From assembly GCA_947631455.1 (NCBI GenBank), contig CANRLH010000006.1, forward strand, positions 1 through 64,000: a stretch of 64,000 bases of DNA. The letters run 5' to 3'. The notes below the pieces were generated by a model. The model was not told the origin of the DNA, did no database searches, and saw only the letters and a program-made list of their open reading frames with translations. The translations under genes were made by a program, and so were the position numbers. Positions 20,627 through 42,256 of the stretch are shown piece by piece. This DNA is from an uncultured Clostridia bacterium. GTDB lineage: Bacteria; Bacillota; Clostridia; Oscillospirales; Ruminococcaceae. The first letter of the stretch is position 1. Each line of letters starts with the position of its first letter.

Positions 20627-20653
20627 AACTGCCGTCTCAAAAGGACGACAGTT
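20627..20653. terminator. Bidirectional terminator facing the invertible segment
   Basis: Arms AACTGCCGTC (20627-20636) and GACGACAGTT (20644-20653), with one internal mismatch. On the minus strand it is followed by TTTTGTT. It ends the SLOG gene and would also stop a transcript that leaves the invertible segment through its left repeat. Confidence 0.7.
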
Positions 20654-20693: not shown

Positions 20694-20718
20694 TTCGTAG
20701 AATATCTCGTTCTAAGAA
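20694..20718 (+). repeat. Left inverted repeat of invertible segment (IRL)
   Basis: Twenty-five bases, starting TTCGTAGAATATCTC and ending GTTCTAAGAA, identical to the reverse complement of 22121-22145. Identity stops at both edges. The two repeats enclose a tyrosine recombinase gene and an outward promoter, so they are the predicted crossover sites. Confidence 0.9.
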
Positions 20719-20747
20719 ATCTCGAAACCTACAACAATACACTTATA

Positions 20748-20776
20748 ATTATACTCATTGACACCTTTGTTGTCAA
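20748..20776 (-). promoter_or_regulatory. Consensus promoter pointing out of the segment
   Basis: On the minus strand: TTGACA (20776-20771), a 17-base spacer, TATAAT (20753-20748), a perfect vegetative promoter with a predicted start near 20741. It reads leftward across IRL into the terminator at 20627-20653 and would give a noncoding RNA of about 120 bases. A palindrome, ATTGACA (20757-20763) and TGTCAAT (20771-20777), covers the -35 box and spacer and may be an operator. After inversion the promoter would lie at 22063-22091 and face the XRE gene at 22155. Confidence 0.82.
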
Positions 20777-20877
20777 TACCGAATCCGCATATTTCAGCAA
20801 AAAGCCACATTTATTTTCCGAGCCAATATTAAAATATACATGGTTCACCCCGCACCCATAGAGTTTCTTATCCATTC

Positions 20878-22076
20878 GGGGTCAAAAACTGGGTCGAACT
20901 AATAACATTGAATGGAGGTATTATTATGCCAAGACGAGGAGAAAACATTCGCAAGCGAAAAGACGGCAGATGGGAAGGACGCTTTATTAAATCGCATGAT
21001 TCTGGCGGAAAAGCAAAGTATGGTTCTGTTTACGGAAGCACATATCTCGATGTAAAGAAAAAATTAAATGAAGCAGTTGAACAGGTATCCAAAAATGCAC
21101 TTCCCACAGCAAATCATGATTTGACTTTTCGGGAGGTGCTTTTTCTTTGGCTTCAAAGCAATCGAATCAAATTGAAAGATCAGACATATACAAAATACTC
21201 CTATTTGATTGAGAGCCATATTTTGCCACACCTTGGCCAGATAAAGATTCAAAAACTTGATGTCGCAACAATCAATCACTTTGTTTATGCAAAAGCCAAC
21301 AATGGCAGACTGGACGGAAGCGGCGGACTTTCTCCGAGTTATATCCAAACGATATGTTTCATTATTTCTTCGACACTGGATTTTTCGGTAAAAGAAGGTT
21401 ATCGTTCTTCTAACATTGGTTCGATTACAAGACCAGTGAACAACAAAGGAAAGCAAAAAGTAAAAGTGTTGTCACATAAGGAACAAGATGTACTTGAGCG
21501 ATACTTGATTGACAATATTGATGAAAGAAAACTCGGTGTCTTGATCTCACTTCGTTTGGGGCTTCGTGTCGGAGAAGTTTGCGGATTGCGTTGGGAGGAT
21601 GTCGATTTTAAGGATCAAACTGTTCATGTTCAACACACGGTAGAGCGCATTGCAAATATTGCCCCTTACACGGATGATAACAAAACACGACTTGCACTCT
21701 GCGAAACAAAAACAGTTTTTTCCAATAGAGTTATTCCGATTCCTTCCGGTATTATGCCGTTGTTTACTCAATGCAGAAGAACAAGCGGTTTTATACTACC
21801 GGGAAACACCTATGAATATACCGATCCGAGAACCTTCCAAAACGCCTTTCACAAATATTTGGATGAGTGCAAACTTCGCAGTTTTAACTACCACTGTCTT
21901 AGGCATACTTTTGCTACCCGCTGCATCGAGGCGGGAGTGGATGTCAAATCGCTCAGTGAACTATTGGGGCATTCCAGCGTGAATATTACACTAAACATCT
22001 ATGTTCATTCATCTCTTGAGCATAAACGCAATCAGTTGGAGCTTGTTTCCGGCATTTGGGGTCAAAAATAGGGTCA
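20878..22076 (+). repeat. Direct repeats flanking the recombinase gene
   Basis: Two related 19-base copies with the core GGGGTCAAAAA and a trailing GGGTC, at 20878-20896 (before the recombinase ribosome site) and 22058-22076 (across its stop codon); 16 of 19 bases agree. They could be recombinase accessory sites or marks of an earlier insertion of the recombinase cassette. Confidence 0.5.
20926..22071 (+). CDS. Tyrosine recombinase, predicted DNA invertase
   Basis: A 381-residue site-specific recombinase. The N-terminal arm is basic (MPRRGENIRKRKDGRWEGRF); the SAM-like core-binding domain spans about 65-165; the catalytic domain has Arg in LRVGEVCGLRW near 213, HCLRH near 323-327, GHSS near 348 and the nucleophile Tyr in NIYVHSS near 358. 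All catalytic positions are present. AATGGAGG precedes the ATG; an upstream TTG at 20908 is less likely. The gene lies entirely within the 25-base inverted repeats, as hin does in Salmonella, though Hin is a serine enzyme. No excisionase accompanies it. It differs clearly from the ICE integrase at 51509-52744. Confidence 0.88.
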   Translation: MPRRGENIRKRKDGRWEGRFIKSHDSGGKAKYGSVYGSTYLDVKKKLNEAVEQVSKNALPTANHDLTFREVLFLWLQSNRIKLKDQTYTKYSYLIESHILPHLGQIKIQKLDVATINHFVYAKANNGRLDGSGGLSPSYIQTICFIISSTLDFSVKEGYRSSNIGSITRPVNNKGKQKVKVLSHKEQDVLERYLIDNIDERKLGVLISLRLGLRVGEVCGLRWEDVDFKDQTVHVQHTVERIANIAPYTDDNKTRLALCETKTVFSNRVIPIPSGIMPLFTQCRRTSGFILPGNTYEYTDPRTFQNAFHKYLDECKLRSFNYHCLRHTFATRCIEAGVDVKSLSELLGHSSVNITLNIYVHSSLEHKRNQLELVSGIWGQK

Positions 22077-22095
22077 GTAAAATGCGAAAAGCCTT

Positions 22096-22120
22096 GAAAA
22101 CGATGGACTTTTTCGTTTTC
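22096..22120 (+). terminator. Terminator just inside the right repeat
   Basis: Arms GAAAACGA (22096-22103) and TCGTTTTC (22113-22120), followed by TTCTT at the start of IRR. It sits 25 bases after the recombinase stop and insulates the downstream cargo operon from recombinase transcription in the present orientation. Confidence 0.6.
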
Positions 22121-22145
22121 TTCTTAGAACGAGATATTCTACGAA
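22121..22145 (-). repeat. Right inverted repeat of invertible segment (IRR)
   Basis: Exact reverse complement of 20694-20718 over 25 bases. Its end lies nine bases before the ATG of the XRE regulator that heads the T7SS-like operon, so any transcript entering through it runs straight into that operon. Confidence 0.9.
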
Positions 22146-22154
22146 AGTGTGAAA

Positions 22155-22475
22155 ATGGCTATGGATGAAGTAGTAAAAGTGCAAGTGCCGCAGGATGATA
22201 TACTGCTTGAGATGACGAGAAAACTGCCTGAGTTGCGAAAGGCATTTAATATCAGCCAAACGCAGCTCGGAGAACTTGTCGGTAAAAGTCGGCAGCAAAT
22301 TTCCAAAATTGAAAGAGGCATAGCGCCTTTGAGCTGGGATACTTGTTTGGCTATCATAATGATTACTTGTCAGAAGGATCGAGAATTATTCAACAGTATT
22401 ATCGCCAGCGACATGATTACGGACATCAATATGTTGCTTGAACAAAGGTTTAATAACGATAATGATGGTGATTAA
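22155..22475 (+). CDS. XRE regulator heading the T7SS-like operon
   Basis: A 106-residue protein with a helix-turn-helix at about residues 25-75 (LPELRKAFNISQTQLGELVG, SRQQISKIERGIAPLSWD) and an acidic C-terminus. It starts nine bases after the right inverted repeat; the ribosome site (GAAAGTGTGAAA) is weak and lies partly in the repeat. Only three bases separate its stop from the FHA gene, so it is part of the cargo operon. It may feed back on the promoter inside the invertible segment, whose -35 region is palindromic; that is an inference. Confidence 0.8.
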   Translation: MAMDEVVKVQVPQDDILLEMTRKLPELRKAFNISQTQLGELVGKSRQQISKIERGIAPLSWDTCLAIIMITCQKDRELFNSIIASDMITDINMLLEQRFNNDNDGD

Positions 22476-22478: not shown

Positions 22479-23588
22479 ATGAAAATTAGGGCAACAAGCA
22501 AGAAAGATCAACTGAAAGTAAAAATAAAACTACCTTCTCCTGAAGTGATTGATCGTGGAGAGCTTGATTTAATTTGTAGAGTTTTTGTCCGTGGATTTTT
22601 AAAACCAAGTCTCTACAAAACGAAAATTCTCGAATACAAAGGTATCGGCGGCATCTCATTAAAAAAATATCTCAAGAAACCTCTAAGCAAGTATGAATTC
22701 TTCTTTGCGATATACCAAATCGTTCTGGCCGAATCGACAATACAAAAAAGTGGTTTGCACCCGAATAGACTATGGCTGAACTTCAACTCTGTTTTTATCA
22801 ATGAAGCGACTAAAGAACTTCTATTCATTTATTTACCTGCTAAAGAAATAAATGATAATTCAGACGCTATGACATTCTTGAAATCTGTTGCAAACGCTGC
22901 GAAACCTATATGTGACAATGCGGACTATGATTTTATATCTCGTTTTATGTATTTTATTTCAGCTATGCCTTCTTTTGATGAATTGAAAATAGAAAAATAC
23001 ATAGAGCGAGAAGATAATAGGATTACAAGGTTAATCAAAAGAATTGAACCAATACAGACGCAACATTCATCAGATGAAGGACATCCCAAATCTGAGAAGT
23101 CACAAAATGCGGATGGTCTGAATGGAAAAACGGACTTCATAGGCTCAGATAAAACAGAGTTGCTAGGCCGGTTAAATTCTGATGATAGTGAACAAGATAC
23201 ATCTACTCTTCTTCTTTCTGATGATGTAACAGCATTACTTGGCGATGATGACAGTACAGAGCTTATTGATACAGATGAGCAAACAGAGTTAGTCCACTAT
23301 CCCACTTTAAAGAGGGTATCGACTGACGAGATAATTGTAATCGACAAGCCTGTGTTTCGTTTGGGAAAAGACAAAAGCTGTGTAGATTATGTTGTGACAA
23401 ATAACAATACTATAAGTGGCAACCACGCAGATATTGTTTCACGCAATGAACAATATTATGTAGTGGATTTAAACTCAAAAAATAAAACTTATATAAATAA
23501 GCGAGTGCTACCTTCTCAATATGAGGTTGAGATATTTAATGGCGATACCTTAAGGTTGGCAAATGAGGAATTCATTTTTGGGCTTTAA
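22479..23588 (+). CDS. FHA-domain protein 1 of the T7SS-like locus
   Basis: A 369-residue cytoplasmic protein. Residues 1-190 form a domain resembling DUF6382 (YEFFFAIYQIVLAES, LLFIYLPAKE), shared with the protein at 32025-32939. About 195-280 is an acidic, Thr-rich linker with repeated TELL, TALL, TELI and TELV units. The C-terminal FHA domain (about 290-369) keeps the phosphothreonine-binding elements FRLGKDKSCVDYVV, ISGNHADI and LNSKNKTYINKR. It likely binds phosphorylated partners of the kinase encoded at 24607. The linker units look like kinase target sites. Confidence 0.8.
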   Translation: MKIRATSKKDQLKVKIKLPSPEVIDRGELDLICRVFVRGFLKPSLYKTKILEYKGIGGISLKKYLKKPLSKYEFFFAIYQIVLAESTIQKSGLHPNRLWLNFNSVFINEATKELLFIYLPAKEINDNSDAMTFLKSVANAAKPICDNADYDFISRFMYFISAMPSFDELKIEKYIEREDNRITRLIKRIEPIQTQHSSDEGHPKSEKSQNADGLNGKTDFIGSDKTELLGRLNSDDSEQDTSTLLLSDDVTALLGDDDSTELIDTDEQTELVHYPTLKRVSTDEIIVIDKPVFRLGKDKSCVDYVVTNNNTISGNHADIVSRNEQYYVVDLNSKNKTYINKRVLPSQYEVEIFNGDTLRLANEEFIFGL

Positions 23589-23624
23589 CTAACAAAGGCT
23601 TGGTGAACAATTGGATGTGAGATT

Positions 23625-24398
23625 ATGCGATTTTCTGCTGTTGCTGACACGGATATAGGAATTAACAAGACAACAAATCAAGATAGCCTGCTAATAAAGC
23701 ACGCAATCTATGAAAACATTGAAGTCCTAATGGCTGTCGTTTGCGATGGAATGGGAGGATTATCTAAAGGCGAGCTTGCCAGTGCTACCGTAATTCGCAC
23801 CTTTTCCGACTGGTTTGCGAAAGTATTGCCTTTTGAATTACAGTGTCTTGATTTTCAAATACTCAGCAGCAAATTAACATTACTTTTGAAAGATATAAAT
23901 GCTCGAATTAATGATTACGGGCAAAAGAATGGTGTAAATCTTGGAACAACAGTTTCCGAGATACTATTTATAGGAGACAAATATTTGATTCATCATATTG
24001 GTGATAGCAGGATATATCATATAAACTCTGCGGTTAAACAGCTTACCATAGATCAAACACTTGTAGAAAGAGAAGTTGTCAAAGGTCGATTAACTCCAGA
24101 GCAAGCAAAAAACGATAAGCGAAGAAATCTTCTGCTCCAATGTGTGGGAGCATCAAAAACAATAGAGCCGCAAGTTGTCTTTGGAACAATCGAACCGGGT
24201 TCTTATGTACTTTGTTCAGATGGTTTTCGTCATACCATCACGGAGAATGAGATGTTGCACACTTTTGGAGAAAACGAAAATAACAGAACTTTAAAAATAG
24301 GGGTAAGAACGCTGATTGACGCAGCAAAGAATCGTGGAGAAAAAGACAACATTTCTGTAATTGTAGTTAAAATAGATTCCAAAGCGGAGGAAAGATAA
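23625..24398 (+). CDS. PP2C-family Ser/Thr protein phosphatase
   Basis: A 257-residue metal-dependent phosphatase. Metal-binding and core motifs are visible: ADTDIGINKTTNQDS (residues 5-19), VVCDGMGGLSKGE near 38-50, IHHIGDSRIYHI near 122-133, SDGFRH near 193 and GEKDNISVIVVK near the end. It should reverse the action of the membrane kinase two genes downstream. The stop overlaps the next start by one base, and the gene is in the same operon as the FHA protein. Confidence 0.9.
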   Translation: MRFSAVADTDIGINKTTNQDSLLIKHAIYENIEVLMAVVCDGMGGLSKGELASATVIRTFSDWFAKVLPFELQCLDFQILSSKLTLLLKDINARINDYGQKNGVNLGTTVSEILFIGDKYLIHHIGDSRIYHINSAVKQLTIDQTLVEREVVKGRLTPEQAKNDKRRNLLLQCVGASKTIEPQVVFGTIEPGSYVLCSDGFRHTITENEMLHTFGENENNRTLKIGVRTLIDAAKNRGEKDNISVIVVKIDSKAEER

Positions 24399-24589
24399 TG
24401 GATTGGCTTACAAACGATATGATATTTTATGGAGGAATAATCATTTCTGCGATTGCGTTGCTGGTAGCTTTAACTTCCATATTTGTATTTACAATTAAGA
24501 AAATAAATCTGACCGCTCGCTTGGACACTGAATACGGGAAACAGATTAAACGAACAGAAAGAGCGAAAAAGGCAATGACCGATAAGTAG
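24398..24589 (+). CDS. Small single-pass membrane protein
   Basis: A 63-residue protein with one membrane segment (IIISAIALLVALTSIFVFTI, about residues 13-32) and a basic cytoplasmic tail. It is coupled to the phosphatase by a one-base overlap (AATGG) and lies 17 bases before the kinase gene. In size and topology it could stand in for EssA-like small T7SS membrane proteins, but no sequence signature supports that. Confidence 0.6.
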   Translation: MDWLTNDMIFYGGIIISAIALLVALTSIFVFTIKKINLTARLDTEYGKQIKRTERAKKAMTDK

Positions 24590-24606
24590 TAAAGAGGAAC
24601 AATGTT

Positions 24607-27477
24607 ATGGCTGAGATAATCGCATCAACATATGAAATAATTGAAAAAATCGGTTCGGGTGGCGGCGGAAATGTGTTCTTGGCAAATCATTTGCGTCTTG
24701 GAAAAAAAGTTGTTTTAAAAGCTGACAAACGAAAAATAACCACCCGCCCTGATTTACTTCGCCGTGAGGTAGATATATTAAAGAATTTAAGCCATTCATA
24801 TATCCCTCAAGTCTATGATTTCTTTACCGATGGCGAAACGGTGTATACCGTTATGGATTATATAGAGGGAGAAAGCCTTGATAAACCATTAAAAAGAGGC
24901 GAACGATTTTCGCAGCCGCAGGTTATCCAGTGGGCGGTGCAACTCCTTGAAGCTCTTTGTTACTTGCATAGTCCGATACACGGCGATCCGCCAAAAGGTT
25001 TTGTCCATAGCGATATAAAACCCGCAAATCTTATGCGGACACCGCACAATAATATTAGTTTAATAGATTTCAACATAGCACTGGCTTTGGGCGAAGAAAA
25101 TGTCGTTGGATGCAGTGCGGGATATGCTTCTCCAGAGCATTACGGTTTGGATTTTTCAACTCGTAGTGGGACTGCCAGTGTTGACGATTCTACAGAAACA
25201 ATAGACGACAAGACGGCTACAGTTACATTATTAGAAGCGAATTCGAGTTCGATGAATACAGAATCAAAAAAACGTATTCGTCCTGATGTTCGATCCGATA
25301 TTTATAGTGTTGGGGCTACTTTGTATCATCTTTTAAGTGGAACACGACCCGCAAAGGATGCTACGGAGGTTATCCCCTTATCAAATAAAGAGTTCAGCCC
25401 GCAAATTGTAGATATAATCACAAAGGCAATGAACCCCAACCCTGATCTGCGTTTCCAAACCGCAGAGGAAATGTTAGTTTCATTTTTGCAACTGCGGAAA
25501 AATGATCCACGGGTAAAAAGGCTGAAGCGAAGTCGCATCATTGTAAGTAGCCTGATAGCTATCGTGTTTGTTTTTGGCATTTCAATGACATTCGTAGGGT
25601 TAAAGAGGATGCAATTAACTGAGAGCTGGCTAAAACTGGCAGAGTATTCTCAAAATGCTCTTTCCGAGGGTGACACAGCCAAAGCTATACGTTATGCACT
25701 GGAAGCCTTGCCACAAAGCAGTAATCTATTCGTTCCAAATCAAATCGCAGAGGCCCAGAAGGCACTTGCGGACGCATTGGGAGTTTACGACCTGTCGGAT
25801 GGATTCAAGACGCATGAAACCATCGAACTTCCATCTGCCCCTTTGTTTCTTTCTTTATCTCCTGATGGGAAAACCGCAGCCTGCATCTATTCGGGAGCGT
25901 TAGCGATTGTTGACACAGGCAGTTCAGATATTATTGCAACACTGAATACGGATAAATCGGCATTATCCGAAGTCGAATTTATAGACAATAATCTGATTGT
26001 TTATGCGGGAATTGATGGGATCTCTGCATACGATGTCACTACTTCATCTGAGATTTGGAACGGGAAACCAGCAACAGCAATTGCCGTATCAGGTGATAAA
26101 AAGACCGTTATTGGTGTTTATAAAGATGAGCAGTACGCAACATTGTATAATGCAGAAACCGGTAACGAAATTGCCACAGTAGATTTTCACGGAAGAAAAC
26201 AGCAAGTTACCGTTAATGATGTTTTCGCTAATCCAAACAACAATCTTCTTTCCCTTAATGAAGGCGGTACACTGCTTGGAGTTAGTTTTGAAGACGGTTC
26301 GTTGGAAATTCTGAACTTAAAGAATCCAGATAACGACATTGTTCTGTATGACAAGTCTTCCGGCTATAGCCATTTTGAGGGAGGCTTTTACAAACAATAT
26401 TTTGCTTATTCTGCATCAAACTCAAAGGAGTCAGTCTTTGCTGTTATTGATACAGAAAGTAAGTCGCAAACAGGAGGTTTTAATTCTGACAAGGCCTTTA
26501 GTGTCTATACAGATGAAAATGGCATTTGTGTTCAAACGGAAAATCTGTTGGTGAGAATTGATCCAGTTACCGGCGATCAAACTCCACTTATTAAAACAGC
26601 CGAAAATGTTCTGCGCTATGCGGTAAGCAACTCGCATACAATCGTAACGTATAAAGACGGATATATGTTTTTTGATGAAAGAGCTGTCCTGACATCGAAG
26701 CATAAGAATGATTACAGTAGTGATTTTGTACAAATTGCAGAAGGGATTGCGCTGATAGGAAGCATGGATTCTCCTGTCATACGAATTATGAAATATGAAA
26801 ACCATCCCGAAAGCGAAGTCTTTACCTACGATCCTTCTTATACACACGATGAGGCGAGAATCAGTGATGATGGAAAGACAATTATGCTGTTCTCTTATAA
26901 GCAGTTTCGTGTATATTCTGTTGACGGTGATTTACTTAAAGAGGTCAACATACCGGAACCGGAACAAATTTACGATCAACAATATGTCCGAGATGATACC
27001 GGATCCCGTCTCGAAGTGATTTATAACGATGGCAGGGTTATTATTTATAATGCAAGAGACGGAACTTTGATCGGAGAAGAAAAGCGGGATGCTCCTGATC
27101 CTTCGCTATACGAAGAATTCGTTACCGATAACTTAAGAATTGAGTCACCTTTACATGGGACACCAAAAGCCTATGATTTAAAAAGCGGCAAACTGGTTCG
27201 TGAATTATCGGAGGACGCATACCTGACATATGTAACGCAATCGGGCGAGTATATCATCACGCAGTTTGTTACTGGAGATGGCTATTGTTACGGATTGCTT
27301 CTAAATAGTCGCTGTGAAACAATAGCAACTCTGCCGTATTTGAGTGATGTAATAGGAGAAACACTGATATTCGATTACCCAACCGGAAATATGCGGCAAA
27401 CGCATATTTATAATACAAGAGAACTAATATCTATAGCTCAAAAATATACAGGAGGAATTCAAAATGAAAAGAATTAA
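24607..27477 (+). CDS. Membrane Ser/Thr kinase with extracellular repeat half
   Basis: A 956-residue transmembrane kinase. The N-terminal kinase domain has the loop IGSGGGGNVFLA (12-23), Lys in VVLKADKR near 38, catalytic Asp in VHSDIKPANLM near 136 and DFN in place of DFG near 154. After YASPEHYG it carries an insert of about 40 residues rich in Thr and Asp (DDSTETIDDKTATV), before RPDVRSDIYSVG. A membrane segment (about 311-332) leads to about 600 extracellular residues of repeated beta strands (LSLSPDGKTAA, ISDDGKTIMLF), which look like a WD40/PQQ-type propeller. It may sense the envelope or act at the place of EssB, a pseudokinase with similar topology. The last 14 bases overlap the next gene. 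Confidence 0.85.
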   Translation: MAEIIASTYEIIEKIGSGGGGNVFLANHLRLGKKVVLKADKRKITTRPDLLRREVDILKNLSHSYIPQVYDFFTDGETVYTVMDYIEGESLDKPLKRGERFSQPQVIQWAVQLLEALCYLHSPIHGDPPKGFVHSDIKPANLMRTPHNNISLIDFNIALALGEENVVGCSAGYASPEHYGLDFSTRSGTASVDDSTETIDDKTATVTLLEANSSSMNTESKKRIRPDVRSDIYSVGATLYHLLSGTRPAKDATEVIPLSNKEFSPQIVDIITKAMNPNPDLRFQTAEEMLVSFLQLRKNDPRVKRLKRSRIIVSSLIAIVFVFGISMTFVGLKRMQLTESWLKLAEYSQNALSEGDTAKAIRYALEALPQSSNLFVPNQIAEAQKALADALGVYDLSDGFKTHETIELPSAPLFLSLSPDGKTAACIYSGALAIVDTGSSDIIATLNTDKSALSEVEFIDNNLIVYAGIDGISAYDVTTSSEIWNGKPATAIAVSGDKKTVIGVYKDEQYATLYNAETGNEIATVDFHGRKQQVTVNDVFANPNNNLLSLNEGGTLLGVSFEDGSLEILNLKNPDNDIVLYDKSSGYSHFEGGFYKQYFAYSASNSKESVFAVIDTESKSQTGGFNSDKAFSVYTDENGICVQTENLLVRIDPVTGDQTPLIKTAENVLRYAVSNSHTIVTYKDGYMFFDERAVLTSKHKNDYSSDFVQIAEGIALIGSMDSPVIRIMKYENHPESEVFTYDPSYTHDEARISDDGKTIMLFSYKQFRVYSVDGDLLKEVNIPEPEQIYDQQYVRDDTGSRLEVIYNDGRVIIYNARDGTLIGEEKRDAPDPSLYEEFVTDNLRIESPLHGTPKAYDLKSGKLVRELSEDAYLTYVTQSGEYIITQFVTGDGYCYGLLLNSRCETIATLPYLSDVIGETLIFDYPTGNMRQTHIYNTRELISIAQKYTGGIQNEKN

Positions 27478-30400
27478 AAGAGCGCTGTCCCTTTTGTTGT
27501 CACTTATAATGTTAGGAACAGCAATCGCATCTACTGGCATGATTTCATATGCATCATCGAATATATCACCTATGTCATTGCTACCATTAGAAGAAAAGAC
27601 GGTCTACTTGATTTTAAACAATGAGTCTAACGAACAACTTAAAGAGATGACGATAAGTACGGTTCTCGGCAAATTGCAGGAATCAAATGGAAATTTGGTT
27701 TCTATTGATAAAAACGCTACCACCGTATGGCATTGCTATAAGGATTCTGAAAGTGGATTGGAGTCTTATGAAGCATACCTTATAGACGATAGTGATGGTA
27801 AGAAGATTGATCTATCACAGCCATTGGACGCAAATATGCAAACAATCGAACTAATTGTAGGTAGAGATGGTCAGCTTAATAATAAAAACATTAGATACAT
27901 TGTAAAAGTATATTACACAGGATATAACAACAATGTATCATACGAATTATATTCGCAATCAGTAGACGGATCTAAAAGGACAAAAATAGAGCCATTAAAG
28001 AAGACATATTCTAATGGATCGTATGATGAGATCGTTGATATTAATGGTAATCCAGTCCCAATGTATAACGCTGTTTACTCTGTACCAGAAGGACAAATTC
28101 TCAATCCCTATTTAGGTATCAGGTGTTCCATAGAAGAACGGCCTGATGTTAGTGTCGATTTTTACGAATTGACAGATAACCAGCTTACAAATCCGATAAC
28201 GGATCAGTTGTTAAACCAAGACATGACTAAACCTAATTCTGGATATAAGATGACAGGGACGGGAGCATCATTTATTTTAAAATTTAATATTGATGGCATA
28301 GATGCAGGCATACAGGTATTTACTTTTACGATAGCTGGGTCGTTCCCATATGTTTCTTCTGAATTGTTTGAAATATCTTCTGGTTCTAAAACAAGTGTAA
28401 CATATGCATCAACAGAAGATATTGATTTTGATGATGACATATATACTATTCAGCATGAATTGAAAAATGGGAAAAAAGATGCCGGAGAGTATTATTTAAA
28501 TTTTTATGCCAACAATGGAGAAAACGATATTTCCGACAAGGTTGTTAAAGCTGTAGTTGGACACTATAATTCTTTGTCCGAAGCCTCAAATGCTCCGGAC
28601 ATTAAGGCGGATCTTTTTTCAACAAGTACCGGGTACAAAGCTAATTATAGCGGAAATGGTGTAAACTTTACTTTGTTTTTTGAGGACGGTGTAATATACG
28701 ATAACATTCCTTATAAATTAACAGTTAAAGCGGTAGAATATGCTACCAATATGCGTGAATATACAGATAAACCTATTATCGGTGAAGCAGATCCTTGGTT
28801 TAGAGTTACAGGTGCAACAGATAATCAGGGCAAATCTTATGATACATATGTAATAGAAAATGGTAAGTCCATCAATATGGACACCTATTACGGCTATGGT
28901 TATCAGACGCTATTTATCAATGACGCCAACGCAGATTTAACTCAGCTAAAACCAAATTTCTGGTATGCTAACACAGATCGAGTATATGCTGTTTCAAAGG
29001 ATACCGGTGCGAAAGTTGAAGAAAATCATGTCAGAGATTTCAGCAATGAAAACCAGCAGTATACCGGCGTCATCATCGACAATGGCAAAGAAAATAATAG
29101 GAACTATTGGGTAACATTCAAAAAGCTGAACAACAACGGTCCAGAACTCTATGTATTTGGCCCGAATGAGCGGGAGGTAATTCTCGACGAATACTTTGAG
29201 TACAAACACGATGTTCTCATTGCTAATATTGGTAATGCACCGCTTGAAGGCTTAAGCGTTGAACTTAAAGATGCGGAAAATGTCAAACTTGATCCTTACT
29301 GGACTGTGGGTGGTACAAACAATGATACCCTTGCTCCCTTTACGGCCACTTTGTCCAACACAAAATACGGAGAGATAGCAAACATCGCAAAAGTTCGCTT
29401 GCTTCCGGATGGAGATGGAGAAGTTAAAGGCACCTTGATTATCAAGGCGAAAGGTCAAGAACCTGTCTTGATTGAGCTGAATGGTACTGCACAACAGCCC
29501 AAAATCGTCACTGAAACTCTAAGTGATGCCGTTAAATATGTTCCCTACTCTCATATTGTTGCGACCGATAATATTCATGATTGGAATGAGGTGACTTTTG
29601 AGCTGTATTCCGGTACGCTTCCGGATGGGGTTGAATTAAACACTCAAACCGGTGAAATTTATGGTACTCCACAAGAAGCAGGAGAATACCATTTCACCGT
29701 GGAGGCAAAGTACACTTATTTTGAACCGTCTTTTGTCGAACTAACTTTGAATGTAAAAGACAACACCAATGAAAATGTCTTCCAAGCATCCGATGAAGGC
29801 TATGCCATTCTTGATTCAATCGGTGAAGATGCAAATGGCGACCATAATTATGTGCTGAAAGAAACCGGCGATCAAGTATTCCGCTCCAACGGCGCTTTCG
29901 TAGACTTCGTTGATTTTTGGTTGAACGGTGAAAAGCTGGTTAAGGGTGTTGATTATGATGTTTCCGAGGGAAGCACAAGAATCACGGTCAGAAGTCAGAC
30001 TTTTGAAGACAAAGCCAACCAAGATGGTTCTAATACGATAGCTGCCGAGTTCCGTACTAATGGAGGTGATCCGGACGGCACCCATGAAGGTGAACTGAAA
30101 CGCACAGCGCAAAACTTCACGATGGATGTTAAAAAATCCGATCCGGCTGTTGATAATGTGATAGCCTTAATCAACGCAATCCCTGATACCGTTAGATTAA
30201 GTGATAAGGCTACAGTTGAAAAGGCAAGAGCTGCGTATAATGCCTTGACAGGTGCTCAAAAAAATCAAGTCACGAATTATGACAGGCTGATTGCAGCCGA
30301 AAAGGCCATAGCGACACTTGAGGAAAATGAACGCAGGGATAAGGCCGCTGCAAATGCTGTGATTGCAATGATTGATTCCTTGCCTTCTAATATCACATTA

Positions 30401-31675
30401 AATGATAGAACGGCAGTAAACAATGCAAGAAATGCCTATGAGAATCTGACAGCGCAACAAAAGGTCTATGTTACCAATTTGAACAAATTGGTAAACGCCG
30501 AAAATAGACTAAAAGAACTGGAAACAGAGGAAAAAGAAAAAGCACCTATCAACGAAGTCATATCTCTTATCAATGGGATACCTGACCCTGTGACATTGAA
30601 AGACAAAGGTGCTGTTGAGACTGCCAGAAAAGCCTATGATGCTCTAACAAATGCTCAAAAGCAAGGAGTGGTCAATTACAACAAATTGACTGATGCCGAA
30701 AGAACAATTGCTGCATTGGAGGCGCTTGAAAATGCCAATGCGAAAGATAAAGCGGCAGCAAAAGCGGTGGAAGACCTTATCAACAAGCTGCCAGATGCTC
30801 CCGTTCTCTCTGACAAAGCTGATGTCAATGCTGCCAGAAAAGCCTATGATGCTCTTACCAACACGCAAAAGAGTTTAGTAACAAATTATGCTGAATTGGA
30901 AAAAGCAGAAAACACGATTGCTGCTTTAGAGGCGTATGAAAAAGCGTCTGAAGCTGACAAAAAGGCTGCCGATAAAGTAATGAGCATGATAGATGGGTTG
31001 CCCGACAATTTAACCTTAACTGATAAAGAAAAGGTTGAGGCAGCAAGAAAAGCATATGATGCTCTCACTGAGGCACAAAAACAGATTGTCACAAACTATT
31101 CAGATTTGATCGAGGCCGAAGTAGCTATCGCAGAACTGGAGAATGAAGATTATCAAAGCAATCAATATGTTACTTTCATTGGCCGTATTGTTGATTCAAA
31201 CGGGAAGCCAATGGCAAATGTGGCAGTTGAACTTCATTCCAAAGTTCAAACTGCTCGAACTGACAGCAACGGATTCTTCAGATTCAATATGGTTGAAATG
31301 GGCAAACACTCTCTTATTGTGAAAGACGCAAATGGCAAAGTGATCGCCTCTAAAGACTTTAGTATTGTTGAAGGGACACCGTTATCTGTTACTGAGGACA
31401 TCATTACTGCCGAAAACCGTTCCACATTCACTGTAACTGTGGAAGCAAAAGGAAGCGACTTGACCTTTAAAGATTTGCAAGAAGGCGATCATACAGTTGC
31501 CGGTGGTGGTTTGCCCGATGAGCCTGGTATAAATATTAACGACTTACAGGGTTCTGTATCTTCACCTCAAACGGGTGACTCTACGAATCTTGCTCTGTGG
31601 TATGCGCTGTTGATACTATCCCTTTCAGGTTTGGTCGTAATGACTGTGCTTGGAAGAAGGAGAAGAAGTTATTGA
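27464..31675 (+). CDS. Large wall-anchored multi-domain surface protein
   Basis: A 1403-residue secreted protein. Residues 1-30 are a signal peptide. A long beta-rich region of unknown family follows (to about 675). Then come a putative Ig domain (TLPDGVELNTQTGEIYGTP, about 680-765), an X2-like module (about 770-890), five tandem helical repeats of 65-70 residues (895-1230), and a carboxypeptidase-regulatory-like beta module (GRIVDSNGKPMANVAVELHS). The end has a sorting signal: SPQTGDS near 1366, a membrane segment and RRRR. SPQTG departs from LPxTG. GGAGG precedes the start, within the kinase gene. It may replace the extracellular part of EsaA, or act as an adhesin. Confidence 0.82.
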   Translation: MKRIKRALSLLLSLIMLGTAIASTGMISYASSNISPMSLLPLEEKTVYLILNNESNEQLKEMTISTVLGKLQESNGNLVSIDKNATTVWHCYKDSESGLESYEAYLIDDSDGKKIDLSQPLDANMQTIELIVGRDGQLNNKNIRYIVKVYYTGYNNNVSYELYSQSVDGSKRTKIEPLKKTYSNGSYDEIVDINGNPVPMYNAVYSVPEGQILNPYLGIRCSIEERPDVSVDFYELTDNQLTNPITDQLLNQDMTKPNSGYKMTGTGASFILKFNIDGIDAGIQVFTFTIAGSFPYVSSELFEISSGSKTSVTYASTEDIDFDDDIYTIQHELKNGKKDAGEYYLNFYANNGENDISDKVVKAVVGHYNSLSEASNAPDIKADLFSTSTGYKANYSGNGVNFTLFFEDGVIYDNIPYKLTVKAVEYATNMREYTDKPIIGEADPWFRVTGATDNQGKSYDTYVIENGKSINMDTYYGYGYQTLFINDANADLTQLKPNFWYANTDRVYAVSKDTGAKVEENHVRDFSNENQQYTGVIIDNGKENNRNYWVTFKKLNNNGPELYVFGPNEREVILDEYFEYKHDVLIANIGNAPLEGLSVELKDAENVKLDPYWTVGGTNNDTLAPFTATLSNTKYGEIANIAKVRLLPDGDGEVKGTLIIKAKGQEPVLIELNGTAQQPKIVTETLSDAVKYVPYSHIVATDNIHDWNEVTFELYSGTLPDGVELNTQTGEIYGTPQEAGEYHFTVEAKYTYFEPSFVELTLNVKDNTNENVFQASDEGYAILDSIGEDANGDHNYVLKETGDQVFRSNGAFVDFVDFWLNGEKLVKGVDYDVSEGSTRITVRSQTFEDKANQDGSNTIAAEFRTNGGDPDGTHEGELKRTAQNFTMDVKKSDPAVDNVIALINAIPDTVRLSDKATVEKARAAYNALTGAQKNQVTNYDRLIAAEKAIATLEENERRDKAAANAVIAMIDSLPSNITLNDRTAVNNARNAYENLTAQQKVYVTNLNKLVNAENRLKELETEEKEKAPINEVISLINGIPDPVTLKDKGAVETARKAYDALTNAQKQGVVNYNKLTDAERTIAALEALENANAKDKAAAKAVEDLINKLPDAPVLSDKADVNAARKAYDALTNTQKSLVTNYAELEKAENTIAALEAYEKASEADKKAADKVMSMIDGLPDNLTLTDKEKVEAARKAYDALTEAQKQIVTNYSDLIEAEVAIAELENEDYQSNQYVTFIGRIVDSNGKPMANVAVELHSKVQTARTDSNGFFRFNMVEMGKHSLIVKDANGKVIASKDFSIVEGTPLSVTEDIITAENRSTFTVTVEAKGSDLTFKDLQEGDHTVAGGGLPDEPGININDLQGSVSSPQTGDSTNLALWYALLILSLSGLVVMTVLGRRRRSY

Positions 31676-31676
31676 C

Positions 31677-31880
31677 ATGATTCAAAATGATGCTTCTTGT
31701 GAATCGGCAGACTTCCAAACCCGATACAAAAAACAAGAGTGTTCTTCAGTCAAAAGATTCACGCAAAACATTAGAGAGCAGAGAATTCGTAGAAAGCAAC
31801 TTAGACAAATGAAACGCCTGGCCCAAAAATTCAAAATCATAGATGAAGTAATGATTGTCCATACAAACGAGTCAATCTAA
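31677..31880 (+). CDS. Small basic protein, unknown function
   Basis: A 67-residue protein with a strongly basic middle (QNIREQRIRRKQLRQMKRLA) and no membrane segment. It starts two bases after the stop of the surface-protein gene, with AGGAGAAGAAG as ribosome site. No family recognised. It closes the first half of the cargo locus, before two large hairpins. Confidence 0.5.
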   Translation: MIQNDASCESADFQTRYKKQECSSVKRFTQNIREQRIRRKQLRQMKRLAQKFKIIDEVMIVHTNESI

Positions 31881-31896
31881 AATAACAATTTCCGTG

Positions 31897-31996
31897 CTTC
31901 CCGTGCGGTTCACTAACCCGCACGGGAAGACGGGAAGGTTATTTATTAGAAGCTGGTATATGAAATAGGTACATAAATCAGCTTGTAGTAAATAAC
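31897..31996 (+). other. Two consecutive hairpins between the cargo halves
   Basis: First hairpin: perfect 12-base arms CTTCCCGTGCGG (31897-31908) and CCGCACGGGAAG (31918-31929), with no T-run. Second hairpin: 18-base arms at 31938-31955 (GTTATTTATTAGAAGCTG) and 31979-31996, matching at 16 of 18 positions. They lie just before the ribosome site of the second FHA gene, and probably reduce or process the transcript between the signalling half and the secretion half. Confidence 0.65.
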
Positions 31997-32024
31997 ATGA
32001 TCAGAACAATAGGAAGTGGAGCAT

Positions 32025-32939
32025 ATGAATCTACTTGAACGAAAAGATTTAATAACAGAAATGCCTTTGGGAAATAATTTAGCATATATTTTAAATGATA
32101 ACGCACTTTTTCTGACTACTGAATATAAAGTGATGCACAGTCAGAAAGACGATGCGCTCATTAAATGTATGAAAATGATTTTCAATGATAAGATTCAGTT
32201 GTTTTACCTTACAAAGCAGCTAAGGACATTATCATCGATGATGCCTGTTGCCGATGTAGATAGTATGCGATTGCTTATTAACAATCTTATTTTAGGAATT
32301 TTAAGTATTAAATCGAATGGGTTCTTAACCTGCGAAAATATAGACATCGAATTGGAACATATCTTTGTAGATCCGGCAACATACAAAGTATATTTAATCT
32401 ACTTGCCAATAAACAAAAGATGGTTTGATAACTATTCTTTTTTTGAAAATGAATTACGTAGTACCTTGATAAAAGCAATTTCAAATCTCCCCTCTATTGT
32501 GGATATGCCGCAAATGAAACAGTTAAAATTAGACTTAGAGGATGGAAGACTTACATTGGAAGATGTGCATTCTCGCATGAGGATTGGAGAAGATAATCCT
32601 TCATACTTAAAAGAACAATGTTCTTCCTCATCTAATTCTGTTTTACACATAGTAGCAATCAATGCGATAGAACAGTTAGATCTTGTAGTCGAAAAAGATG
32701 AGTATGTTATCGGGAAGAATGCTACTATTGCGGACGGAGTTGTTTCGTTTAATAAAGCCATCAGCCGACAGCATTGCATGATCAGGCAAAACAACGGGCA
32801 GTTCACAATATCTGATTTGGGGAGCGCAAACGGAACATTTGTTAATGGACAAAGGATAGCGCCAAATCAACAGCAACCTATTCAAAATGGCGACATTGTG
32901 CGACTGGCAAATAGTGACTTTAAGATTGAGATTCGATAA
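32025..32939 (+). CDS. FHA-domain protein 2 of the T7SS-like locus
   Basis: A 304-residue cytoplasmic protein built like the one at 22479-23588: a DUF6382-like N-terminal domain (about 1-180, with VYLIYLPINKRW) and a C-terminal FHA domain (about 222-304) with YVIGKNATIADGVV, ISRQHCMI and GSANGTFVNGQR. It lacks the Thr-rich linker of its paralogue. AGGAAGTGGAG is the ribosome site for the ATG at 32025. It starts the secretion half of the locus and may couple kinase signalling to EssC, whose own N-terminus is FHA-like. Confidence 0.8.
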   Translation: MNLLERKDLITEMPLGNNLAYILNDNALFLTTEYKVMHSQKDDALIKCMKMIFNDKIQLFYLTKQLRTLSSMMPVADVDSMRLLINNLILGILSIKSNGFLTCENIDIELEHIFVDPATYKVYLIYLPINKRWFDNYSFFENELRSTLIKAISNLPSIVDMPQMKQLKLDLEDGRLTLEDVHSRMRIGEDNPSYLKEQCSSSSNSVLHIVAINAIEQLDLVVEKDEYVIGKNATIADGVVSFNKAISRQHCMIRQNNGQFTISDLGSANGTFVNGQRIAPNQQQPIQNGDIVRLANSDFKIEIR

Positions 32940-32952
32940 GGAGGGATGATGT

Positions 32953-34008
32953 ATGGCAAAACCACGAGTTATGATTGTTGATACAGATTTGAATTACATT
33001 ATCCCTCTACAATTGAAATTTGTTGAGGAATATTTTGAAAGCGTTGACTTAGAGATAATAACCGATGTCAATGTGTTTCAACAGAAGTTTTCAACACCCC
33101 AAAGAGCAAATGTTCTTGTTATAGCTGATAGTTTATACGATTCTTCACTGCAACGGCATAATATAACGAGCGTCTTTCTCATGACCGAACAAGAAGATAA
33201 TGAGCAGCCGGATAGCCTGAATGTGACCAGAATCTATAAGTACACAAATATTAAATCAATATTTTCTCAAATTACAAGAAGTAATCTTGGAAGCACAGAA
33301 CCCTCTATGCACAAAGATTCCTCACAGCTTATTATGGTAACATCGGCTTGTGGTGGTGTCGGAAAAACAACAATAGCTCTTTCACTATGCCAATGCTTGG
33401 CTACGATTGGAAAGAAAGTGCTTTATATCAATGCGGATTATTTGCAGTCATTTCAATATAGACTAGCAAATAAATCTCCAATTTGCGATTCAAATGTCTA
33501 TGCTCAGCTTGCGGAATTTAATGATAGCACATATGGCAATATTCGTTCGGTAATACGCAAGGAAGAATATTATTATGTGCCGCCATTTAAAACAACAATT
33601 ATGTCAGTAGGATTAGAATATTCGGTATATGGGAAATTGGCTATGGCTGCAAAGAATTCAAACGAATATGATTATGTAGTAGTTGATGCTATCCATTCAT
33701 TTGATGAAGAAAACGCCAAGCTAATGAAAATGTCCGATAAGGTGATTATCATTACACTACAAAGCGAACAGGAAGCATTTGCAACAGGACTTTTTGTTTC
33801 CAATATCAACGGTGTTTCTACTGAGAAATATATAATTCTATGTAATGATTTTGAGCAAGCAAAAGATAATGCTCTACTTTCATCAGAATTCACATCAAAA
33901 TTTGGAGTCAATGAGTATATTGAGCATATTACGAACTGCGAACGGATGACGATTGGTGAAATTGCAAAGTGCGGCGGCATTAAAAAGGTTGCATTTTTAA
34001 TCATGTGA
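32953..34008 (+). CDS. MinD/CpaE-like ATPase
   Basis: A 351-residue protein. Residues 1-115 resemble a response-regulator-like fold that opens PRVMIVDTDLNYIIPL, as in CpaE. The ATPase domain has a MinD/ParA-type P-loop, TSACGGVGKTTIALSL, near 130-145, and Asp in YDYVVVDAIHSF near 245. Such ATPases place or order membrane complexes (for example CpaE in pilus assembly, and MinD-like partners in some T7SS). It lies between FHA protein 2 and EsaB/YukD. Confidence 0.78.
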   Translation: MAKPRVMIVDTDLNYIIPLQLKFVEEYFESVDLEIITDVNVFQQKFSTPQRANVLVIADSLYDSSLQRHNITSVFLMTEQEDNEQPDSLNVTRIYKYTNIKSIFSQITRSNLGSTEPSMHKDSSQLIMVTSACGGVGKTTIALSLCQCLATIGKKVLYINADYLQSFQYRLANKSPICDSNVYAQLAEFNDSTYGNIRSVIRKEEYYYVPPFKTTIMSVGLEYSVYGKLAMAAKNSNEYDYVVVDAIHSFDEENAKLMKMSDKVIIITLQSEQEAFATGLFVSNINGVSTEKYIILCNDFEQAKDNALLSSEFTSKFGVNEYIEHITNCERMTIGEIAKCGGIKKVAFLIM

Positions 34009-34019
34009 GGGATTAGGAT

Positions 34020-34274
34020 ATGGCAAAGGAATCTGCAATTATTATTTTTAAAGATAAACATCAAGATATTGAAGTCGATGTTGAAACGCCTTTGGATATT
34101 ACTGCAAATGAATTTGTGATTGGAATCAATGCTGCTTATGGTTTGGGAATTGACATTACAGATATTAAACAATGCTACTTGAAAGCGGAAAACCCGATCG
34201 CTTTATTGAAAGGGAATCGAAAGCTATCCGATTTCGGCGTCCGTAACGGTACAATTGTGTATTATACAGAATAG
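34020..34274 (+). CDS. esaB: EsaB/YukD-type ubiquitin-like T7SS protein
   Basis: An 84-residue protein with a ubiquitin-like pattern: ESAIIIFKDKHQDIEVDVETP, a helix, then LLKGNRKLSDFGVRNGTIVYY. EsaB/YukD is a small cytoplasmic part of T7SSb that contacts the EssC machine. It starts 11 bases after the ATPase gene and directly precedes essC, the same order as in Bacillus and Staphylococcus loci. Confidence 0.8.
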   Translation: MAKESAIIIFKDKHQDIEVDVETPLDITANEFVIGINAAYGLGIDITDIKQCYLKAENPIALLKGNRKLSDFGVRNGTIVYYTE

Positions 34275-34284
34275 AGGAATACAT

Positions 34285-37200
34285 ATGATGAATAGGTACA
34301 GAATCAATATTTCTGGGAAAAATATATATCGAGAAGTTGAACTGCCAATAGATGCGCAGCAGATTAAGGTCGGCACGGGTTCAGATTGCCATATTCGTAT
34401 TCATAAAGATTTATTTTTTGAACCCGTGACATTGAACTTCGTGAAAAAAGACGACTCCTGGACTGTTACCTGTTCAGATAATTTATACATTGACACCGGA
34501 GATGTGCGCAAGCTTTTGACACTATCCTTAGTAAATGGAACTACTTTTTCAGTAAAATATCAAGAATCGGAAAATCAGGTCTTCACCGTAGAATACCTGT
34601 TGGATTTTGAGCATGAAAAACGCCGATATGAAAGAGCAATTGATATTACATCTATTAAATCCCTTCGGATTGGAACGGAGCCATCCGACCAGATTATATT
34701 GAAAAGCAAGTTTGTTTGTTCAGACAGTGTTATTCTGACTCAAGCAAACAATGATTTATCTCTTATCGTTGAAAAAACAACTTATGGAGTCTATCGCAAC
34801 GGAACAAAGGTGGGTCAAAAATGTTTGATTCAAAATGGTGACTTCTTCTCCATCTCTGACTTTGCTTTCTTCTATAAGGAGCATATTCTGTGGACGGAAA
34901 TTCGGGATGATATTTCAATTAGCAGTCTGCCTTATAAAGATATGCCTATGCCGTCTCATTATCCGGCATTTACACGCAATACACGGCTAAAACTGGAACT
35001 CAATAAGGATGAGATTGAAATTCTCGATCCGCCAAGCAAGCCGGTTAAACCGAAAAACAATATTTTAACGGCGCTTCTACCCTCAATCAGTATGCTTCTC
35101 ATATCTGGGCTTATGGCATTTATGGGTGGGACAAGCATGATTATATTTAGTGCTCTTTCCGGAGTAACGGCCATTTTAACAACAATTCTCGGCATCACAC
35201 AAGGGAAAAAAGATTTTAAAATCGAAAGCAAACAAAGGATTGAAAAATATCAGAAATATGTAGAGTCAAAACGGACAGAAATCACCGAATATAGAAATCA
35301 GGAGCGGTCGGATCTGGAATCAATCTATCCGAACCAAGACACTGAAAAAAAGATGATTTTCGGCTTTTCTTCCGACTTGTTTGATCGTTTGCCGTGTGAT
35401 GAGGACTTTTTGACGGTACGACTTGGTCTTGGAGATACAGAGGCAGAACGGAAAATCAATTACAAAAAGCAAGAACGATTGGAGGTTGAGGACGATCTCC
35501 AACTGATACCTAGTCAAATTTATGAAGAAGAAAAAATACTACGGAACGCCCCTGTTGTTTGCGCTCTGAAAGAAGCAAATGCGGTAGGAATTGTCGGCTC
35601 TGAAGATTTGCGCTTTGCCATGATGAAAAATATGGTTCTTGATCTTTGCGCAAGGCAATATCAGACGGATGTAAAACTGTTTTTTATAGCTGAGGCAGAA
35701 CATAAGAATCGTATTTCTTGGTTGCGCTTTTTACCTCACGCTTACGAAGAAACATCAGGATCAAGATACATTGTTTGTGACGATGACAGTAAAGCACGAA
35801 TTTTTGATTACCTCTACAAAGAACTGTCTCAGCGCACCGAGGAAACAAACACGCCGCACTTCGTGGTTTTCTTTTATGATGACTGTGGGATTCAAAGCCA
35901 TCCGTTATCAAAATTTATTGATAGCGGTCATAAACTCGGTATTACATTTGTCTTCATGGCTTCGGTTAAAGCGGATATTCCTCTTGGGTGTAGCCAATTG
36001 ATTAAACTGACCTCCGAAACAAAAGGTACTTTAATTCAAGCCACAAACATAGAGAAATCTATTGATTTCACATATCAACCCATTGGAGATAATGATGCTA
36101 AAAAAATCGTTCAATTCCTTGCACCGGTTTTTACAGAGGAAATTTCTTTGGAAGGTACACTGACCAAAAATATCTCTCTGTTTGAAATGCTTAATATTTT
36201 GGATGTGGAAGATCTTGATTTGAACGCTCGTTGGAGCAATACGGATGTCACAAAATCAATGGCTGCGCCTATCGGCGTATCCAAAACAGGAATGATTGCA
36301 CTTGATTTGCACGATAAAGCGCATGGCCCGCATGGACTTGTAGCCGGCACGACCGGTTCTGGTAAGTCGGAAGCGCTGCAAACCTATATCTTATCTATCG
36401 CTACCCTATTTCATCCGTATGAGGTATCTTTTGTCATCATCGACTTTAAAGGCGGCGGTATGGTAAACCAATTCAGAGACTTGCCCCATCTACTGGGCGC
36501 TATCACGAATATTGACGGAAAAGAAATTGACCGTTCTCTGCGTTCCATTAAAGCAGAACTGCAAAAAAGGCAGCGCCTATTTGCCGAAGCAGATGTCAAT
36601 CATATTGACAAATACATACGAAAATACAAAGAAGGGTCAGTCAAAACCCCTATTCCTCATTTAGTGCTGATTGTTGATGAATTTGCCGAATTAAAAGCAG
36701 AGCAGCCCGATTTTATGAAGGAATTGATTTCCGCTGCAAGAATCGGGCGAAGTCTTGGCGTTCACTTAATCCTTGCTACGCAAAAACCGTCTGGACAGGT
36801 GGATGACCAGATATGGAGCAACTCTCGGTTCAAGCTCTGTTTGAAGGTTCAGAGCCAAGAAGACAGTAATGAGGTATTAAAATCTCCCCTTGCTGCGGAG
36901 ATTAAGGAACCCGGACGAGCTTATCTGCAAGTGGGAAACAACGAAATATTCGAGTTGTTTCAATCGGCGTACAGTGGCGCTCCATCAAAAATACTTGATA
37001 GCACAGTAAAAGAATTTGCGCTTTATAGTGTCAACGAATTCGGGCGGAGAACACCCGTGTATTCGAGAAAGAAGCGCAAAGCCTCCGGTAATGTTGAAAC
37101 ACAGTTGGATGCAGTTGTGCAGTATGTGGACGCCTATTGTAAAGAACGAAACATTGTAAGGCTCGAAAACATTTGTCTTCCGTCTCTTGGCGATAAAATT

Positions 37201-38784: not shown

Positions 38785-38851
38785 TTTCTTGGTAGTAAAT
38801 CGGCCAACGCTGATTTTACTATAAAATACATTAAGGAAAGGAGGAATTAGA

Positions 38852-39145: not shown

Positions 39146-39160
39146 TTTCTGGCACATGGA

Positions 39161-39206
39161 GACAGTCGGCAGAATGCCGAATAATGCTCAGCATTCTGCC
39201 ACTGTC
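39161..39206 (+). terminator. Strong hairpin/terminator after the WXG100 gene
   Basis: Arms GACAGT plus GGCAGAATGC (39161-39166, 39168-39177) pair with GCATTCTGCC plus ACTGTC (39191-39206), leaving one bulged base. A TTTTTT run comes 15 bases later. Likely a partial terminator or 3' stabiliser for the WXG100 transcript. Confidence 0.7.
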
Positions 39207-39286
39207 AAAATGTGTAAAATATTTTTTATCTGATTATGCCGTACTATGGCTTAATATATAAACGCTTTAATATAGGAGGTATTTCC

Positions 39287-39874: not shown

Positions 39875-39886
39875 GGAGGTATATTT

Positions 39887-40174: not shown

Positions 40175-40188
40175 CGGAGGGAATTACA

Positions 40189-40500: not shown

Positions 40501-40517
40501 AAAAGGGGTGTTCGTAT

Positions 40518-42227: not shown

Positions 42228-42256
42228 AATGGTCAAGGTGAATGGAGGTGTGATGA

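Follow-up and report, generated by a model that had tools for sequence, protein, structure and literature searches.

A candidate self-contained invertible promoter cassette ahead of a type VII secretion operon in an uncultured Clostridia bacterium

We analyzed a 64,000-nucleotide stretch of DNA from an uncultured Clostridia bacterium of the Ruminococcaceae (contig CANRLH010000006.1, positions 1 to 64,000; hereafter the window), in which a putative invertible promoter, packaged with its own recombinase gene, stands at the entrance of a type VII secretion operon on an integrative and conjugative element (ICE). The segment in question (20694-22145; 1452 bp) is enclosed by a perfect inverted repeat with 25/25 complementary positions, made up of a left recombination site on the plus strand (20694..20718) and its exact inverted copy on the minus strand (22121..22145). 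Inside each 25-bp repeat is a 9-7-9 dyad (TTCGTAGAA TATCTCG TTCTAAGAA in the left copy), which is the layout of a tyrosine-recombinase core site, and a search of the 1.92-Mb assembly allowing up to 3 mismatches returned no copies of the repeat beyond this one pair. A first-pass annotation, made from the sequence letters, had already described the repeat, the enclosed recombinase gene, the outward promoter and the terminator that it faces, all of which we recovered, and had proposed from them a cassette that inverts to control the operon; the dyad within the repeat and the 12-bp-period direct repeats flanking the recombinase gene had escaped it.

Between the repeats lies an intact tyrosine recombinase gene on the plus strand (20926..22071, from ATG 20926 to the stop at 22071; 381 aa), whose product matches the Pfam models Phage_integrase (4.4e-25) and Phage_int_SAM_3. 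Both models were matched in 46/46 members of the recombinase family, and R214, H323, R326, H349 and Y359, which we take to be the catalytic residues, are invariant in 46/46 aligned members. With its R, H-x-x-R, H and Y and its core-binding SAM-like domain, the enzyme belongs to the tyrosine recombinase superfamily and not to the Hin/Gin serine invertases, so that hin, which the first-pass annotation had offered as a parallel, holds as a functional analogy only. The N-terminal 60 residues gave no reliable match to a Pfam arm domain (AP2 at 0.03 in 1/46 members). The family profile found its best PDB match in chains 6emy, 6emz and 6en0-6en2 ('Int protein'), which we take to be the Int of the conjugative transposon Tn1549, and it also matches the integrase of the ICE itself. 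Both matches would suit a recombinase that serves as the integrase of a nested integrative element, with the repeats as its attachment sites. The attachment sites flanking an integrated element are, however, direct repeats, and no direct repeat of at least 13 bases was found within 1.5 kb either side of the recombinase gene; the recombinase is the only gene between the sites, and the ICE has its own Tn916-type integrase to the right of the cassette (51509-52744). With the repeats inverted and the recombinase alone inside, we rejected a nested element, to which we give almost no weight.

A consensus promoter on the minus strand (20748..20776; TTGACA-17-TATAAT, 12/12), one of five perfect sites in the 64-kb window at spacers of 16-18, presently points left, reading through the repeat into a terminator on the same strand (20627..20653; 10-bp stem with a U-rich tail, -14.3 kcal/mol, z -4.9). 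Inverting the segment in silico moves this promoter to 22063-22091 on the plus strand as first proposed, 63 bp ahead of the ATG at 22155; the 57 bp originally quoted is the distance to an alternative GTG start at 22149. The first cargo gene, beginning at one or the other of these starts (22149..22475, plus strand), encodes an HTH_3 (Xre-type) protein by Pfam, and is followed by a type VII secretion operon (22479..43861, plus strand) for FHA, PP2C, kinase, Ig, FHA/DUF6382, MinD-like, YukD, EssC, WXG100 and small proteins. EssC (TIGR03928) scores 1128 bits against a curated cut-off of 778.4, and WXG100 (TIGR03930) 76.1 bits against 44.85, which places the locus among T7SSb-like EssC type VII systems and bears out the cargo type named in the first-pass annotation. 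DUF6382 matches above its cut-off at 32016 and below it at 22479.

As in invertons, inverted repeats here flank a short segment carrying an outward promoter that could face an operon after inversion, and we hold, at a probability of roughly 0.86, that 20694-22145 is a self-contained invertible promoter controlling the type VII operon. In the proposed mechanism, the tyrosine recombinase would bind both 25-bp repeats as core sites, each with 9-bp arms and a 7-bp crossover, and the direct repeats of 12-bp period that flank its gene would probably serve it as arm sites, with strand exchange within the 7-bp core inverting the segment. When OFF, the strong outward promoter would read left through the repeat into the terminator, and after inversion to ON it would fire rightward, transcribing the HTH gene and the type VII operon. 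The cassette very probably flips in this way to turn the operon on and off, and the anatomy fits the earlier call that the sequenced orientation is OFF. We infer from these comparisons of sequence that flipping occurs in this organism, that this enzyme performs it, and that the operon is transcribed according to the state of the cassette.

The anatomy is conserved in the closest homologue of the cassette (L033, in genome G717, a metagenome-assembled genome named Ruminiclostridium), whose recombinase is 74% identical to that of the window and which precedes the same type VII operon, with a perfect 25-bp repeat and a 12/12 outward promoter in the same place. The repeats of the two cassettes differ by one base, which lies in the 7-bp core and is changed alike in both copies. 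The HTH proteins are 75% identical, the right flanks match at the DNA level and the left flanks do not, and the terminator beyond the left repeat is stronger in L033 (-26.6 kcal/mol). Window and L033 both show OFF only, as would be expected of a former switch that is now locked, no longer inverting, with the operon silent or expressed from elsewhere. Such a loss appears improbable, given a recombinase intact in all catalytic residues, a promoter that is 12/12 in both cassettes, and repeats that are perfect in both despite 74% recombinase identity, with the spacer difference paired between copies.

Beyond this pair, we compared 82 recombinases, comprising those of the window and L033 and 80 others at 35-54% identity to the former, taken from the better-scoring matches listed. 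L135, on the same contig as L033, was dropped before counting; L185, whose repeat is oddly placed, was kept among the 82, the 75 below and the tree, and left out of the 74 cassettes used for most other counts. A flanking inverted repeat scoring at least 15 is present for 75/82 recombinases, 57 of them perfect, compared with a maximum of 14 in 1000 shuffles; left and right flanks paired across different cassettes give some scores up to 25 because relatives share sites. A smaller first comparison gave an exact repeat of at least 15 in 13/14 recombinases (the window included) and in 0/6 more distant ones. In a tree of 93 rows, from which L143-L145 were omitted as identical to L142, a clade of 79 rows (support 98/98) contains all 72 repeat-bearing ones; some of the outgroup branches are long and were flagged as such by the program. 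A clear dyad was found in 57 of the 73 cassettes (from the 74) that entered the dyad analysis, and in 57/57 of these the 7-bp core is identical between both copies, with 48 different cores among them; flanks just outside the repeats are 26.6% identical. By these comparisons, the window cassette belongs to a large clade in Clostridia of putative invertible promoters that are self-contained and derive from an ICE-type integrase.

A single recombinase gene between terminal inverted repeats, beside many unrelated genes and in several near-copies in G163 and some other genomes, could also describe a small transposon or insertion sequence (IS)-like element, in which the enzyme is transposase-like, the repeats are its ends and the outward promoter is incidental; outward promoters are also known in IS elements. 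Against this, edge direct repeats of 4-6 bp occur in 3/73 cassettes versus about 7/73 when flanks are mismatched, giving no sign of target-site duplications, and the repeats match within each cassette and differ between cassettes, unlike fixed transposon ends. The single repeat pair in the window's assembly and the similar short distances at which cassettes precede homologous operons, in either orientation, also speak against an IS-like element, which we rejected as very improbable on the lack of target-site duplications and the cassette-specific repeats.

An outward promoter of at least 11/12 over the left repeat recurs in 40/74 cassettes versus 0.9% of dinucleotide shuffles, and one of the same quality lies on the other (plus) strand in 4/74. 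A possible weak recombinase promoter in the window (20722..20749, plus strand; TCGAAA-16-TATAAT, 10/12), whose -10 overlaps that of the outward promoter, is speculative because plus-strand promoters lack clear enrichment in the family; with matches of at least 10/12 in 13/74 cassettes, a conserved plus-strand recombinase promoter was not supported. We additionally noted, in the region 20741-20780, that the outward promoter spacer contains TTGACA-N7-TGTCAA, and that TTGACAAATCCGACAACA-like spacers occur in several other cassettes, possibly forming an operator for a conserved regulator.

The direct repeats on the two sides of the recombinase gene were also found across the family. On the recombinase strand, GTCA-N8-GTCA (period 11 or 12) occurs between left repeat and gene in 47/71 cassettes and around the gene end in 34/71, compared with 0.22 expected per side and 0 on the opposite strand, the strict count covering the 71/74 cassettes whose match starts near residue 1. 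In the window, the left arm-like repeat (20878..20899, plus strand; GGGGTCAAAAACTGGGTCGAAC) has a 12-bp period with GTCG as its second unit, which leaves the window out of the strict count on that side, while the right one (22058..22079, plus strand; GGGGTCAAAAATAGGGTCAGTA), also of 12-bp period and overlying the end of the recombinase gene, is counted. The 12-bp-period direct repeats are probably arm-type sites; direct repeats of that type, combined with an arm-binding domain at the N-terminus, characterize heterobivalent integrases (lambda/Tn916 type).

Among other species, homologous cargo is found next to cassettes of either orientation. We scored a cassette as OFF when an away-pointing gene lies nearby on its right side only, and as ON when on its left side only, which divided the 74 cassettes into 31 OFF, 11 ON, 17 both and 15 neither. 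We counted 43 pairs with homologous away-pointing cargo on opposite cassette sides, against 85 with such cargo on the same side, the 43 pairs covering about four cargo types and not being independent. For instance, the agr operon stands in ON orientation in L065, L072 and L080 and in OFF orientation in L068, L152, L177, L178, L180, L181, L190, L191 and L194 (LytTR regulator, kinase and AgrB identified by Pfam in L068 and L065, the others sometimes matching part of the operon), and genes for SipW-like peptidase/camelysin lie on the ON side in L139, L141, L082 and L147 and on the OFF side in L163, L188, L151 and L174 (identified by Pfam in L139 and L163). The EssC type VII loci comprise six OFF, namely the window, G717 (L033), G684 (L196), G333 (L219), G342 (L220) and G421 (L221), and one ON, G069 (L217/L218), which has a perfect 28-bp repeat. 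FHA, PP2C and kinase genes are also in ON orientation in G748 (L195), where the contig ends with no EssC seen. An EssC match was present in 55/396 family genomes, 40 of them above the cut-off, and in at least 5 of the 55 a cassette lies ahead of the EssC operon (by coordinates, with repeats checked).

Terminator placement follows orientation. An outward terminator lies beyond the left repeat in 23/29 OFF vs. 3/11 ON cassettes (Fisher p 0.007) and beyond the right repeat in 2/31 OFF vs. 5/11 ON cassettes (Fisher p 0.0085), with the proportions becoming 19/23 vs. 3/8 on the left and 2/23 vs. 4/8 on the right once ten near-copy groups are collapsed; the three agr ON cassettes have a terminator on neither side in the same test. 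In most cassettes whose promoter points away from the cargo, transcription would thus run into a terminator. Family repeats, promoter enrichment, opposite orientations and OFF promoters facing terminators all lend support to the original proposal of an invertible promoter cassette. Less of the proposed insulation survived: the hairpin described as blocking the recombinase transcript from the cargo exists (22096..22120, plus strand; A/T-rich, 8-bp stem, 9-nt loop), but it is weak (-8.1 kcal/mol, z -2.2), was reported by neither of two terminator scans, and has no scanned terminator as counterpart in L033. Across the family, a terminator follows the recombinase in 18/74 cassettes versus 2.6% in shuffles, and we rejected such insulation as a family rule on this count.

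Inversion might instead mainly affect the recombinase or the left side, for instance through an antisense or regulatory transcript, with the cargo under regulators of its own such as the HTH protein. An HTH gene is indeed the first cargo gene in the window and L033 and comes first on one side in several other cassettes, and read-through from the recombinase gene may reach the cargo in the OFF state. We nevertheless find this explanation unlikely, since most terminators stand at the cassette end opposite the cargo, and the cargo genes begin a short distance from the repeat, the spacing to be expected were they transcribed from the outward promoter.

One genome, G163, holds a possible trace of both orientations. 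The end of contig G163:C44 (L177) contains 55 bases that join the left inner end to the right outer flank and site, forming a reverse junction, while the same contig also holds the forward junction, in which the right inner end is joined to that flank; the corresponding left inner ends of its kin L068, L152 and L178 abut a different flank. Assemblers leave overlaps such as these 55 bases at contig ends where the assembly forks, so that reads with the reverse junction probably existed for G163. The same genome carries three near-copies of the agr-linked cassette (L152, L175 on C121 and L177 on C44), the third contig being C104; C121 shares the 55 bases. The co-occurrence in G163 of a reverse-junction contig end and a copy with unlike cores looks as if copies recombine with one another or were mixed by the assembly.

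Several observations weigh against a working switch. Leaving the G163 trace aside, the two orientations have been seen only in different species, and window and L033 share the OFF state. Of 30 contigs examined for a reverse junction, at one fetched end or at both, some of these ends not being true contig ends, 1 has it, and one other (G442:C17) simply ends inside its repeat. With near-copies present in G163, the fork there may combine copies that differ in state and not mark one flipping locus. The 100% identical cassettes L142-L145, from four genomes, share one orientation. Among the 74 cassettes, the 15 without clear cargo and the 17 with away-pointing genes on both sides fit a promoter switch less readily, and with the terminator at the recombinase 3' end being weak, the OFF state may leak. 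Mismatches within detected repeats fall in the core spacer in 1/17 cases against about 4.7 expected, a modest bias, and L175 (C121 of G163), among the 7/82 below the repeat threshold, has two sites with different cores, so that the 57/57 core identity is helped by the repeat-finding procedure.

Other cassettes of the family displayed a range of settings. The window's own genome holds two more, one beside a split YpsA-like gene pair with no clear cargo (L064, G000:C1:306000-323000) and one ahead of an agr operon in ON orientation (L065, G000:C7:89000-106000). Tad pilus operons lie behind the cassettes L066, L136, L149, L155 and L161, whose recombinases are near kin of the window's (TadZ and a T2SSE-type ATPase identified by Pfam in L149, the others by DNA similarity), which suggests that Tad pili are phase-variable. 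The genomes of L142-L145 belong to three families by their assigned labels, with an HTH gene left of the cassette, and the right-hand gene of L142 resembles, judged by its first residues only, that of an erm-type rRNA methylase. L216 (MT836186.1), a faecal record labelled as phage, has the repeat, promoter and left neighbours of L142-L145, and G421 (L221) has about 97% of the L142-type left flank, yet an EssC locus on the right. Among viral contigs, relatives of L142 showed some repeats (L203, L204, L209) and no near-identical pair in opposite orientations, and a plasmid search with L142 gave no match.

The ICE setting named in the first-pass annotation was likewise recovered. To the left of the cassette lie conjugation genes for a relaxase (7746), a coupling protein (10978) and a VirB4-like ATPase (14598), along with sortase and CHAP proteins, and further left (547-5079) a protein of 1510 aa is encoded, in which domains of an Eco57I-like methylase and of a helicase are present. 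The window's cargo DNA had no match in plasmids, and a search for its close relatives gave only matches below 60% identity among phage records and none confirmed in viral contigs. Locus L079 (G011:C12) has the ICE backbone of the window (VirB4 81% identical), with a different cassette after the CHAP gene (recombinase 37% identical) and a glycosyl hydrolase family 5 protein as its cargo, as if the ICE had a cargo slot behind the cassette. L075 has a cassette left end near-identical to that of L079 and a site that mixes the arm variants of the two L079 copies; its right repeat was not found.

Beyond the window, we judge it likely that these cassettes form an undescribed, order-wide class of portable elements, in which an ICE-type integrase has turned into a self-contained inverter, with core sites, arm sites, outward promoter and enzyme in about 1.4 kb, that was repeatedly placed before operons unrelated to one another (type VII secretion, Tad pili, agr quorum sensing, SipW/camelysin and LRR surface proteins), each of which would be phase-variable. 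The class would then contain the first type VII system that, to our knowledge, is controlled by promoter inversion. If so, type VII secretion in these Clostridia would be a bet-hedged, all-or-none trait on a mobile element, such that assays on OFF clones would miss it, and through this cassette pili, quorum sensing, matrix and surface proteins would become phase-variable in many species. Having enzyme, sites and promoter in one short piece with a cassette-specific core would also provide a directly testable set of inversion switches, and cassette orientation could be read from existing metagenome reads.

Promoter inversion itself is known, and, as far as we searched, the self-contained variant and the type VII cargo are new: within the titles and abstract openings listed from the open-licence literature, we found no description of a type VII system under promoter inversion, nor of a tyrosine recombinase enclosed with its own promoter and arm sites. 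Conjugative-transposon integrases integrate and excise elements, and recombinases of the fim and RecV type lie outside the segment they invert and are not known to have an arm-binding domain. The window recombinase shares its catalytic and core-binding domains with the conjugative-transposon Int chains matched above, but appears dedicated to inversion. Its operon, by gene content alone, resembles the T7SSe and T7SSj types, whose clusters likewise contain an EssC-like ATPase, WXG100, a YukD-like protein, a kinase, a PPM phosphatase and DUF6382-FHA (PMC11217815), although the available text of that source mentions no DNA inversion. In the accessible part of a further source, the sole mention of type VII concerns genes down-regulated in a large Staphylococcus aureus rearrangement (PMC6778178).

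Among invertible switches, the available descriptions of fim- and RecV-type systems (PMC9993118, PMC7446863) share with the switch proposed for the window a tyrosine recombinase that inverts the switch of a surface-structure operon, with fimS spanning 314 bp compared with 1452 bp here. Recombinases are occasionally located within the invertible segment, Hin being the example (PMC5903667), and Hin/fljBA of Salmonella resembles the switch proposed here in having the recombinase inside its own segment and expression controlled by inversion (PMC5903667, PMC8987985), but Hin is a serine recombinase, and the window enzyme is a tyrosine recombinase whose sites are built differently. Promoter inversion next to a recombinase gene has also been described in a Gram-positive species, at SZO08560 of Streptococcus zooepidemicus, where five reversed reads were seen (PMC2654543); there, unlike in the window, the segment is about 115 bp with 10-bp repeats, the recombinase lies outside, and the cargo is a single surface protein. 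Finally, inverton group 139, with 32/33 members in class Clostridia, was tied to invertase group 35, a tyrosine recombinase group, in an analysis that counted invertases within 5 kb of an inverton or intersecting it (PMC11892184, as excerpted). This group shares with our cassette the short inverted repeats, a tyrosine-type recombinase nearby and a mostly clostridial distribution, but its two quoted examples are about 200 bp, whereas the cassette described here spans about 1.4 kb, with the recombinase gene inside the segment and arm-like repeats on both sides of it.

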